DNA from: Bacteroidota bacterium
GTDB taxonomy: Bacteria; Bacteroidota; Rhodothermia; JANXDC01
Length of the DNA: 64,000 nucleotides
Assembly (NCBI GenBank): GCA_025059945.1
Contig: JANXDC010000015.1
Coordinates: 1-64,000 of the forward strand
Reading direction: 5' to 3'
This document shows positions 60,752-64,000 of the stretch, piece after piece. Each line of letters starts with the position of its first letter. Within the stretch, counting starts at the first letter, position 1. The position numbers and the translations under genes were made by a program. Under the pieces are notes generated by a model, which was not told the origin of the DNA, did not search any database, and was given only the letters and a program-made list of their open reading frames with translations.

Positions 60752-61723
60752 ATGCGGGCTTTCGTAACCGGAGGCACGGGTTTTATCGGCAGCCACCTCG
60801 TTGAGTACCTGCTTGAGCAGGGCTATGAGGTGCGCGCCTTGGTGCGACGGCAGGCCCGATGGCTAGAGGGGCTTCCCGTTACGCTGGTTCGCGCAACCGA
60901 CATGGAGGATCCGGCCCTGGAGAAGACCCTGGCCGACGTCGAGTACGTCTTCCATGTGGCCGGGCTTGTGCGCGCGCCCACCTGGGAGCCCCTGTACCGA
61001 GCCAACGTGGAGGCTACGGAACGGTTGCTTGCGCTCGTGTGGCGCGTCAACCCTTCGATTCGGCGCGTGCTGGTTGTGAGCAGCCAAGCCGCCGTTGGGC
61101 CCAGCCTGAACGGCCCCGTAACGGAAGAAAGCCCCCTGCGCCCCATAAGCGCCTACGGACGCAGCAAAGCGCTCATGGAGGCGCGCATTCGGGAGCGTTT
61201 TGCGGAGCTGCCTTATACGATCGTGCGTCCTCCGGCCGTGTACGGGCCGCGGGAGCGGGACATCTACACGTTCTTTCGCCTGGTGGCCACTGGGGTGGCA
61301 CCCATCATAGGGACCGGAGAGGAGCCTGAGTTGAGTCTGGTGCACGTTCAAGATCTGGTGCGCGGGCTGTATTTGGCCGCCACAAGACCTGAGGGACTGC
61401 GACAGGTGTTCTTCATCTCCAGCGAGCGCTTTTACAGCTGGCAAGAGCTGCGCGACGTTACGCTGCGGGCTCTGGGCCGGCGTGCGCTGACCCTGCGCGT
61501 GCCGCGCGCCCTGGTGGTGCCCGCAGGGGCGTTGATAGAGGGGATCAGCCGACTCCTCGGCTTCTATCCCCCATTTAATCGGGAAAAAGCGCGCGAACTG
61601 GTAGCCCGCTGGACCTGCTCTACGGAGAAAGCCGTCCGCCTGCTGGGCTACCGGCAACAGGTGGACATCGAGGAGGGCATACCCCAGACCATCGCCTGGT
61701 ACCGGACCCAAGGATGGCTTTAG
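60752..61723 (+). CDS. NAD-dependent epimerase/dehydratase family protein (extended SDR)
   Basis: A 323-aa nucleotide-sugar epimerase/reductase-like protein. It has the NAD loop FVTGGTGFIGSHL (residues 4-16), catalytic Tyr and Lys in SAYGRSKALME, and RPPAVYGPRERD. It resembles dihydroflavonol-reductase-like extended SDRs; the substrate is unknown. ATG 60752 opens on the Rossmann fold; it has no Shine-Dalgarno and lies 9 nt after a -7 element. Its stop shares TTAG with speE. Confidence 0.88.
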   Translation: MRAFVTGGTGFIGSHLVEYLLEQGYEVRALVRRQARWLEGLPVTLVRATDMEDPALEKTLADVEYVFHVAGLVRAPTWEPLYRANVEATERLLALVWRVNPSIRRVLVVSSQAAVGPSLNGPVTEESPLRPISAYGRSKALMEARIRERFAELPYTIVRPPAVYGPRERDIYTFFRLVATGVAPIIGTGEEPELSLVHVQDLVRGLYLAATRPEGLRQVFFISSERFYSWQELRDVTLRALGRRALTLRVPRALVVPAGALIEGISRLLGFYPPFNREKARELVARWTCSTEKAVRLLGYRQQVDIEEGIPQTIAWYRTQGWL

Positions 61724-62598
61724 GCCTCAAGCTGCTGGCGCACAAAGTTCGGCAAAGCAAAAGCGGCGATGTGCACGTCGGGATTGTAGTATCGCAGCGC
61801 TGCCTCAAAAGAGGCGATGCGCGCCCGGACGCGCTCGGAGTCGAAATCGCGAACCGGATGCAAGCTTTTGCTGGCTAAGGTAAACGACCACATGCCGGTC
61901 GGATAAGAGGGGATGAAGGCCAAATACATGCTCACGATCGGAAAAAGCCCACGCAAAAACCCATGCGCGGCTCGAATCGTATGTTGGAACAAACGATCGA
62001 ACGGGGATTCCGTCTGGGCCACCAAAATCCCGTCCGCGCCCAAAATCCGCGCCACATCCCGATAAAAGGCCTCCCCGAATAGGCCTTCGGCGATGCCAAT
62101 GGGATCTGTCGAATCCACGATGACGACGTCGTAAAAACTCGAGGGAGCCTGGCGCGCGAAGGCCACCCCGTCGGCCAGATGCAGACGCAATCGGGGATCA
62201 TCGAAAGCGCAGGCGAGGTTGGGGAAAAAAGCGCGCGCTGCCTCTACGACTGCGGCATCTATCTCGACCAGATCCACTTGCTCCACCTCGGGATGCCGCA
62301 GCACCTCCCGCACCGTTCCTCCATCCCCACCTCCTACGACGAGCACCCGACGAGGAGCCTCTAGCAAGCAGAGCGCGGGGTGACTGATCATCTCATGGTA
62401 GATGAACTCATCGCGTTCCGTAAGCATCACAAGCCCATCTAGGGTGAGGATCCGCCCAAAGGCGTCGGTCTGCCAGACCTGCACCTGTTGATACGGGCTG
62501 CGCCGGCTGTAAAGCAGCTCTTCGACTCCGAAGGTCTGCCCCGTACGACCTTCCCAGTACTCGGTGTACTGGATTTGATGAAACTTCGCCGTGCTCAT
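61720..62598 (-). CDS. speE: Spermidine synthase
   Basis: Aminopropyltransferase moving the propyl-amine group from decarboxylated SAM to putrescine. The 292-aa product has the family's N-terminal sheet (MLTERDEFIYHEMISHPAL), the dcSAM loop VVGGGDGGTVREVL, and VDSTDPIG with the catalytic Asp. ATG 62598 is preferred over 62628 for its fit to the family. It lies 79 bp downstream of speD, separated by a terminator-like hairpin. Confidence 0.94.
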   Translation of the reverse strand: MSTAKFHQIQYTEYWEGRTGQTFGVEELLYSRRSPYQQVQVWQTDAFGRILTLDGLVMLTERDEFIYHEMISHPALCLLEAPRRVLVVGGGDGGTVREVLRHPEVEQVDLVEIDAAVVEAARAFFPNLACAFDDPRLRLHLADGVAFARQAPSSFYDVVIVDSTDPIGIAEGLFGEAFYRDVARILGADGILVAQTESPFDRLFQHTIRAAHGFLRGLFPIVSMYLAFIPSYPTGMWSFTLASKSLHPVRDFDSERVRARIASFEAALRYYNPDVHIAAFALPNFVRQQLEA

Positions 62599-62677: not shown

Positions 62678-63070
62678 TCAAGCCATTTGCGCCGCTTCTA
62701 CGGGCTTATGGCGCACGGGCTCTGGGAAAAGCCCCCGCTTGAGCTCCATGCTGGATACGCTGCGCGATTGAAACTGCTGTTGCAGATGACGCTGGATCAC
62801 CCAGGGATCGATCGTCTCCCCGCAGGTGAAGATGTCCACCGCCGCGTACCCGTATTCGGGCCACGTATGTATGGCGACGTGCGACTCTGCGATCACGACA
62901 ACGCCGCTGACGCCGTGAGGGCTGAAGGCATGAAAAGAATCCGCGACAATGGTGGCCTTCGACTGGCGCACGGCTTCGAGTAAAATGGCGCGAATTCGGC
63001 GCTCGTCGTTCAACACCTCCGGGTCGCACTGATAGAACTCGACCAGGATTTGTCTTCCGAGAGCTTGCAT
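62678..63070 (-). CDS. speD: S-adenosylmethionine decarboxylase, prokaryotic class 1B
   Basis: Pyruvoyl enzyme making decarboxylated SAM for spermidine synthesis. The 130-aa proenzyme self-cleaves before Ser63 in AESHVAIHTWPE; Ser63, His68 and Cys83 fall at exactly the positions known from Thermotoga maritima. ATG 63070 has a strong AAGGAGGG 5 nt upstream; an in-frame start at 63091 is rejected. It is preceded by a long structured leader and followed by speE. Confidence 0.96.
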   Translation of the reverse strand: MQALGRQILVEFYQCDPEVLNDERRIRAILLEAVRQSKATIVADSFHAFSPHGVSGVVVIAESHVAIHTWPEYGYAAVDIFTCGETIDPWVIQRHLQQQFQSRSVSSMELKRGLFPEPVRHKPVEAAQMA

Positions 63071-63340
63071 CGCTACCCTCCTTGCTCGCACCCCCCGCCT
63101 CTAGGCGGGGTCTAAGATTGCATGTTTTGACGGCTTCTTGAGCCGCCACCCATACAACCGCGGTCCTGGTAGACGAAGGGTAGGGGGGATGCCGGAAGAC
63201 GTTCAGAAGTGAAACGCTTGGCTCACATCCCCTAGGGTCGATCCACCAGCCGCTAGCGCTGCACCGCCTCCCAAGAGGCCGGCGCTGCCAGACACGAACG
63301 GATGCGCTCCTAGGCAGGCAGCCGACCTCCGTTCGGCAGG
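63071..63340 (-). promoter_or_regulatory. Long structured 5' leader of speD, candidate cis-regulatory RNA
   Basis: About 270 nt lie between the predicted transcript start (near 63340) and the speD ATG. Visible hairpins on the minus strand: GCCGA/TCGGC (63337-63321); GCGCC-g-GCCTC/GAGGCGGTGC (63285-63261) with a TTGG loop; GGGGATG/CATCCCC (63232-63185) enclosing AAGCGTT/AACGtCTT; GGCGGCT/AGCCGTC (63147-63129); and CCCCGCC-TAGA-GGCGGGG (63110-63093). CTACCCT (63183-63177) is complementary to AGGGTAG over the ribosome-binding site (63079-63073). GCAGCGC occurs three times. I recognise no known riboswitch class. Confidence 0.5.
63112..63153 (-). CDS. Possible 13-aa leader peptide upstream of speD
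   Basis: ATG 63153 to TAG 63112 would encode MGGGSRSRQNMQS. It spans the GGCGGCT/AGCCGTC hairpin and stops 1 nt before the CCCCGCC/GGCGGGG hairpin, a layout like translation-controlled leaders. The upstream AGGA is about 12 nt away, so initiation would be weak. A chance short frame is quite possible. Confidence 0.2.
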   Translation of the reverse strand: MGGGSRSRQNMQS

Positions 63341-63345
63341 CGCTG

Positions 63346-63376
63346 CAAGTATACAAAAACTTCACATCAAGGGCAA
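63346..63376 (-). promoter_or_regulatory. Bacteroidota-type promoter for speD
   Basis: On the minus strand ATTG (63377-63374), a 20-nt spacer and TATACTTG (63353-63346) differ from TTG-N20-TAnnTTTG at one position only. The geometry is the same as the tRNA-Met promoter. It lies about 276 nt upstream of the speD ATG. Confidence 0.65.
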
Positions 63377-63460
63377 TCTAGGGCGTGCTTGCCCGCTAGA
63401 ATGGAGGGGTTGGATATTGCACGTAATCCGTGTAACCCCGGTGAGCATAGGAGTTTGGCC

Positions 63461-64000
63461 GTGGTGATCTGGGTTTTCCTAGCTTGGCTGATAGGAGGGT
63501 CTTCGGATCCACTACGCGCGCTTCTAGATTCCGTTTGGGCCTTTCGGTTACGAGAGGATCCGCTTCTGGCCACTTATCAGGGTTTTGAGCTGGGAGCCGA
63601 TCGGCTGCCCAGCCGGCGGCCGGAGGACTTGGCGCGCTATGCGCGTGCCCTGGATCGCTTCTGGGCGCAGCTTTCCCTGATCGATCGAGCCCAACTAGCG
63701 GCCGAGGAGCGCCTTGCTTACGACGTGCTGCGGCATTGGCTGGAAAACGAGCGGGCCGAACACCGATTCGGCGCCTATCGGATTCCCATCACCTCCGATG
63801 ATGGCTTTCACATCGCCTTTACGCGGCTTCCCCAATGGACGCCGTTTCGTCGCGAACAGGATTACATCTGGTATCTAGCCCGTCTGCGGGCCTTCCCGGA
63901 TTGGGTCCGCCAGCACATCGCCCTTATGCGCGAAGGCATCGCCCGCGGTCAAACGCTTCCGGCCGCTATCCTGGAGGGCTATGAGGTCACCATCGAAGGG
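63461..64000 (+). CDS. DUF885 family protein, N-terminal part (runs off the window)
   Basis: Open frame of 180 codons with no stop before the right edge. Start GTG 63461 has AGGAG 7 nt upstream; GTG 63464 directly follows. An N-terminal hydrophobic signal-like segment (VVIWVFLAWLIGG) precedes helical sequence with the DUF885 patterns (DPLLATYQGFELG..., RLAYDVLRHWLE, PITSDDGFHIAF). DUF885 proteins are large, often exported, peptidase-like alpha-helical proteins of uncertain activity. It is divergent from speD. Confidence 0.78.
   Translation, partial: MVIWVFLAWLIGGSSDPLRALLDSVWAFRLREDPLLATYQGFELGADRLPSRRPEDLARYARALDRFWAQLSLIDRAQLAAEERLAYDVLRHWLENERAEHRFGAYRIPITSDDGFHIAFTRLPQWTPFRREQDYIWYLARLRAFPDWVRQHIALMREGIARGQTLPAAILEGYEVTIEG

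Follow-up and report, generated by a model that had tools for sequence, protein, structure and literature searches.

What is the long, foldable leader that precedes the S-adenosylmethionine decarboxylase gene (speD) in the 64,000-nt stretch of Rhodothermia DNA analysed here (the window), and does it belong to a known class of regulatory RNA? Whether RNA can sense polyamines directly was contested up to the validation, in 2023, of one class derived from SAM-I (PMC10853860), and an independent speD leader outside SAM-I would suggest that RNA control of polyamines arose more than once.

A promoter and a structured leader upstream of speD-speE

The features of the locus are collected in Table 1. 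An earlier note, made from the bases of the window, had claimed a near-consensus promoter and a long leader for speD; TTGCCC-17-TATACT was found, from which a transcript start near 63341 and a leader of ~270 nt are predicted. In the 1-kb region around this promoter 0.4 sigma-70-like sites of such quality are expected, and a similar element (TTGCNN-N17/18-TAnANT) recurs at the corresponding position in G001, the sister genome, and in the cyanobacterial copies described below (L051, G594 and G604). If this reading of the leader is true, the transcript start in Rhodothermus marinus would be expected 50-100 nt before GCGCUAGCGG. The neighbour across the promoter is a divergent DUF885-family gene (window 63389-64000, (+)), and this neighbour is not the same in relatives outside the genus.

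The hairpins read in the leader by the same note also proved to be real. The sense strand folds better than its dinucleotide shuffles (z = -3.1, with 1 of 200 shuffles equally good), and no such advantage is seen for the antisense strand (z = -0.7). The nested hairpin that it had singled out was recovered as GGGGATGT/GCATCCCC (P2) enclosing AAGCGTT/AACGtCTT (P2b), with compensatory changes in P2. Conservation beyond the genus is limited to the 3' ~190 nt of the leader (63259-63071), the first ~80 nt being variable. No terminator-like site was detected from the leader start to the speD ATG, P4 being followed by GGUGC, a linker and the Shine-Dalgarno sequence (SD). The gap between speD and speE holds a hairpin resembling a terminator, GGGGGGCGG...CCGCCCCCC with TGGTGTTTTTT after it (window 62655-62631, (-)), so that some transcripts may stop after speD.

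Table 1. Features of the speD-speE operon and its leader in window coordinates.
Feature	Position	Strand	Remarks
speE, polyamine aminopropyltransferase	61720..62598	(-)	NF002010 1e-106, TIGR00417 3e-90
speD, S-adenosylmethionine decarboxylase	62678..63070	(-)	ATG 63070-63068; TIGR03330 1e-44, PF02675 2e-42, far above cut-off
Shine-Dalgarno GGAGGGUAG	63073..63081	(-)	identical in 12/12 sequences
P0 3' strand GGUGC	63088..63092	(-)	descriptor fit and pair count
P4 hairpin CCCCGCC-UAGA-GGCGGGG	63093..63110	(-)	all paired; one pair with two-sided change, three wobble
P3 UUGUAUG 63157-63151 / CAUGCAA 63124-63118, capped by P3b	63118..63157	(-)	varies by wobble
P3b UGGCGGC 63148-63142 / GCCGUCA 63134-63128		(-)	five pairs with two-sided changes
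P1a 3' strand CCGC and conserved GG (in CYGCGGUUGURUGGG)	63158..63163	(-)	sequence conservation
P1 3' strand UCUACCAG	63166..63173	(-)	pairing counted in 12 sequences
Putative anti-SD CUACCCUUC in J2/1 (joining strand between P2 and P1)	63175..63183	(-)	9-bp complement of SD 63081-63073
P2b inner hairpin AAGCGUU...AACGuCUU, conserved CGUCUUCCG	63196..63219	(-)	absent in G019
P2 5' strand GGGGAUGU	63225..63232	(-)	pairs with GCAUCCCC 63192-63185; 6/8 pairs with two-sided changes; one unpaired cell
P1 5' strand CUGGUGGA	63242..63249	(-)	pairs with UCUACCAG 63173-63166; 4/8 pairs with two-sided changes; 12/12 paired
P1a 5' strand GCGG	63250..63253	(-)	pairs with CYGC 63163-63160; G-C / G-U change at one pair
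P0 5' strand GCGCU	63255..63259	(-)	pairs with 63092-63088; closes junction; invariant
Variable 5' leader part, hairpins CGAACGGA/TCCGTTCG and GGTCGGC/GCCGGCC	63260..63341	(-)	conserved within genus only
speD leader promoter TTGCCC-N17-TATACT	63348..63376	(-)	sigma-70-like; predicted start site ~63341

A conserved, covarying core

The homologous leaders share one architecture, in which a closing helix P0 encloses an arm formed by P1a, P1 and P2, a second arm formed by P3 and P3b, and the hairpin P4, followed by the SD and the ATG. A single structural descriptor accommodates all 12 distinct sequences, and in their hand-fitted alignment about 15 pairs across P1, P2, P3b and P4 are altered on both sides, with one non-canonical cell. 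Because that alignment had been fitted by hand, the pairs were recounted on a MAFFT alignment built without the structure. Canonical pairing held in 91.5% of 655 cells, compared to 41-56% in slid controls. Two-sided changes affected 14 pairs and 41 cells, compared to 7.9 and 14.5 in shuffles, none of 500 of which reached the observed values; the aligned sequences come from only about four lineages. The thermodynamic ensemble agrees for P3, P3b and P4 with few exceptions among the sequences, and for P1 and P2 in the majority of them. Therefore, the core of the speD leader has a conserved structure with covariation.

P0 and P1a, being invariant or nearly so, give no covariation signal and are assigned from invariance and energy alone. 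For the inner hairpin P2b the sequence is conserved but no informative compensation is seen, and its absence from G019 shows it to be dispensable. Three stretches, GCGCUAGCGGCUG, GCGGUUGURUGGG and GGGGGGUGC, vary little or not at all between two phyla.

Distribution of the leader RNA

The conserved core was found in 13 genomes, belonging to three families of Rhodothermia, Rhodothermus included, and to three Gloeomargarita-type cyanobacteria. Each genome has one copy, the source genome of the window among them, always directly upstream of speD, with speE downstream wherever checked and different genes upstream. BLAST against 60 relatives gave a match to the leader in the sister genome (82%) and, over a ~55-nt core, in five members of a single family; each match lies directly before speD. 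A covariance model (R1) then detected single copies in 10 of 245 genomes of the class, in three families, and an improved model (R2) recovered the same ten. Among 394 genomes of the phylum nothing further rose above noise, the large genome searches being run with stricter filters. A genome-wide pattern scan matched KatS3mg041, two Rhodothermus MAGs, Rhodothermales BA12 and, unexpectedly, Gloeomargarita sp. SKYG116. The leader RNA is missing before speD in families f2, f4 and f13. In the RNA-less speD genes of f2 and f4, which are other Rhodothermia families (L016-L034), no strong SD was seen by eye.

Several weaker candidates were discarded. Two phylum-level matches (L046 and L047, E 0.06-0.08) do not adjoin speD, and L047 lies inside an esterase-like ORF. 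A match in the phylum of Anaerolineae (L074, E 0.008) has no speD nearby and is, by reading the bases, antisense to a protein-coding frame; no credible match was obtained in 350 genomes of that phylum. The pattern matches in Rhodococcus, Pseudomonas, Enterobacter, Microvirga, Anaerolineae and Patescibacteria, and two from a viral pattern scan, fail the model. The linkage of the leader RNA to speD was thus exclusive.

At the gathering threshold of Rfam 15 only tRNAs were detected in the whole window, and at E<=10 the window and three diverged relatives (G594, G019 and a Rhodothermus-family homologue) yielded nothing above noise, cold-seep-1 and miRNA models being examples. The earlier note had proposed a candidate new regulatory RNA that it could not match to SAM-I, SAM-II, SAH or other classes, and had named conservation and covariation upstream of speD and the lack of a match to a known RNA as tests. 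That proposal is largely supported: the RNA is conserved, covarying and speD-linked in relatives, cyanobacteria included, it has no Rfam family, and no SAM-class model matched at E<=10. The four-helix junction and the SD/anti-SD pairing described below are additions to it. No speD leader in Rhodothermus or Bacteroidota was found in the open-access literature searched, and the main text of two recent motif surveys makes no mention of one.

Cyanobacterial copies and apparent transfer with speDE

A search around the SKYG116 genome revealed two more cyanobacterial carriers, G594, on a 430-kb contig, and G604. Exactly three of the eight genomes of the Gloeomargarita-type order have speD, and the same three carry the RNA; among 386 genomes drawn from the cyanobacterial phylum G594 alone matched. 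In SKYG116 (L051) and G594 the surroundings are cyanobacterial, with sirohydrochlorin chelatase-like and plastocyanin-like genes (from their translations) upstream and adjoining RNA-speD-speE. The same gene order on the 430-kb contig of G594 rules out mis-binning of L051. On the SKYG116 contig a short stretch of N stands within speD (about 270-300), and the contig ends in speE; in the two other cyanobacterial copies the speD and speE frames are open.

In the SpeD tree all RNA-bearing SpeDs form one clade (100/99), in which the cyanobacterial ones lie near the window genus, implying that the leader RNA moved with speDE between phyla. The RNA was thus probably gained once and then carried along with speDE, in either direction of transfer. 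The similar promoter element was apparently transferred as well, together with speD-speE and the leader, between a Rhodothermia-like lineage and Gloeomargarita-type cyanobacteria (L066, L067, L068 and L051). Having moved in this way, the RNA probably functions without other host-specific proteins, which leaves a self-contained sensor or autogenous binding by SpeD or SpeE. A leader RNA and operon inherited jointly across a phylum boundary make a clean case in which a regulatory RNA travels together with the gene that it precedes.

Putative pairing between an anti-SD strand and the speD Shine-Dalgarno sequence

The 9-bp complementarity between the J2/1 strand and the SD is retained in all 12 sequences, the G019 variant CUGCCCUCC being able to pair too. 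A 9-bp complement to the SD arises in 4-11% of shuffled leaders, so that the persuasive point is the constancy of its place and not any one sequence. As the pairing varies through G-U/G-C changes only, conservation of the anti-SD could partly reflect that of the SD itself.

The predicted energy of the anti-SD:SD pairing is -13.0 kcal/mol at 37 C, compared to -11.7 for the SD with the 16S tail, assumed to be E. coli-like, and both remain similar to each other at 55-70 C. Energies so alike, as a switch needs, mean that the anti-SD and the 16S tail can compete for the SD. In the predicted folds of G184 and G019 the SD is paired with the anti-SD and P1 is absent, as an alternative to P1. The conserved complementarity would thus constitute a recognisable expression platform, and points to SD-based translational control of speD.

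Discussion

As is general for riboswitches, a metabolic gene, here speD, has a 5' leader with a structured domain that is conserved. In the mechanism that we propose, the speD-speE transcript would carry a cis-acting structured leader whose core is the junction of P0, P1a/P1/P2, P3/P3b and P4. The strand CUACCCUUC, exposed between P2 and P1, may keep ribosomes off by pairing with the SD GGAGGGUAG; this could happen with the core still folded, in a pseudoknot, or at the expense of P1, which the pairing would then displace. The SD-buried form, and with it repression of speD translation, would be favoured by a metabolite of the pathway, the most likely candidates being spermidine or the longer polyamine made by the operon. 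We regard it as an even call that the leader is an OFF riboswitch that acts on translation and belongs to a class outside Rfam, probably serving polyamine feedback. A fuller proposal is put forward tentatively: a new riboswitch class with no kinship to SAM-I would sense spermidine, or a longer polyamine of thermophiles, would repress speD translation by burying the SD in a pseudoknot, and would have moved as a unit with speDE between Rhodothermia and Gloeomargarita-type cyanobacteria. The ligand and the sign of regulation are guesses: the gene context is compatible with spermidine, SAM, dcSAM, MTA or autogenous SpeD/SpeE binding alike, and since speD commits SAM to polyamines, the simplest logic is for spermidine or a longer polyamine to repress it as the end product. 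In any case the leader offers a compact, testable system.

A riboswitch for SAM, dcSAM or MTA instead of a polyamine is unlikely, though to be taken seriously. SAM riboswitch classes involving the SD exist, and speD is a SAM-consuming branch point, but the leader has no similarity to any SAM-class model, and the RNA was found before speD alone, never before metK or met genes. As SpeD consumes SAM, this ligand would have to turn speD on, whereas an SD-burying design fits end-product repression more naturally. It is rather unlikely that the RNA binds no metabolite and that SpeD, SpeE or a ribosomal protein represses translation from it. An autogenous protein would travel with an RNA that always adjoins speD-speE and was apparently transferred with it, but neither SpeD nor SpeE is known to bind RNA, and a large conserved junction with invariant stretches seems more typical of metabolite aptamers.

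Several of the hosts are probably thermophiles, and on warming from 37 to 70 C the predicted anti-SD:SD pairing weakens from -13.0 to -5.4 kcal/mol, as would suit an RNA thermometer or a simple structural throttle whose SD pairing melts with temperature and needs no ligand. This explanation is improbable, since RNA thermometers are described as having little sequence conservation (PMC11182007), unlike the three near-invariant stretches of the core. Least probable is a stand-alone RNA, 6S-like or an sRNA, lying upstream of speD by chance, an alternative that the earlier note had entertained; its own promoter and compact fold would suit such an RNA, but the core runs into the SD and ATG, always adjoins speD and conserves the complement of the SD, no Rfam 6S model matched, and no terminator-like site lies between P4 and the ATG.

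Comparison with known systems

For the OFF riboswitch favoured here, the nearest functional precedent is the validated spermidine riboswitch, a SAM-I variant from Gram-positive bacteria that acts through a terminator (Salvail et al. 2023; PMC10853860). Both are leaders of polyamine genes including speD and speE, both have a four-helix junction and end-product repression is proposed for both (PMC10853860); the association with polyamine biosynthesis genes holds for speD-speE in every case examined. In contrast, that riboswitch, which comes from Gram-positive genera, matches the SAM-I consensus and acts by terminating transcription, whereas the speD leader RNA has no SAM-clan match at E<=10, lacks a terminator before the ATG and is found in Rhodothermia and cyanobacteria. 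It differs in both sequence and expression platform and is therefore not placed with the spermidine riboswitch.

In SAM-I and SAM-IV RNAs a closing helix leads into a multi-helix junction, in which a joining strand of 5-7 nt precedes the last hairpin. The speD leader resembles this clan (RF00162, RF00634) in junction topology, which we take only as a lead, and in the regulation of SAM-related genes, but four homologues gave no match at E<=10 and the invariant bases differ. The speF RNA of Rfam is a conserved leader of a polyamine gene. The odc1 and potE motifs are likewise conserved leaders of polyamine genes (PMC8632094). All three precede other genes, and no Rfam model matched the speD leader RNA. 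In the preQ1-II and preQ1-III riboswitches the SD is buried by pairing with an anti-SD of the folded RNA (review PMC11625349). Translational control by an anti-SD strand, within a pseudoknot there and by complementarity here, would be common to both (PMC11625349), but sequence, size, junction and genes are different, so that the likeness is one of shared logic and not of kinship.
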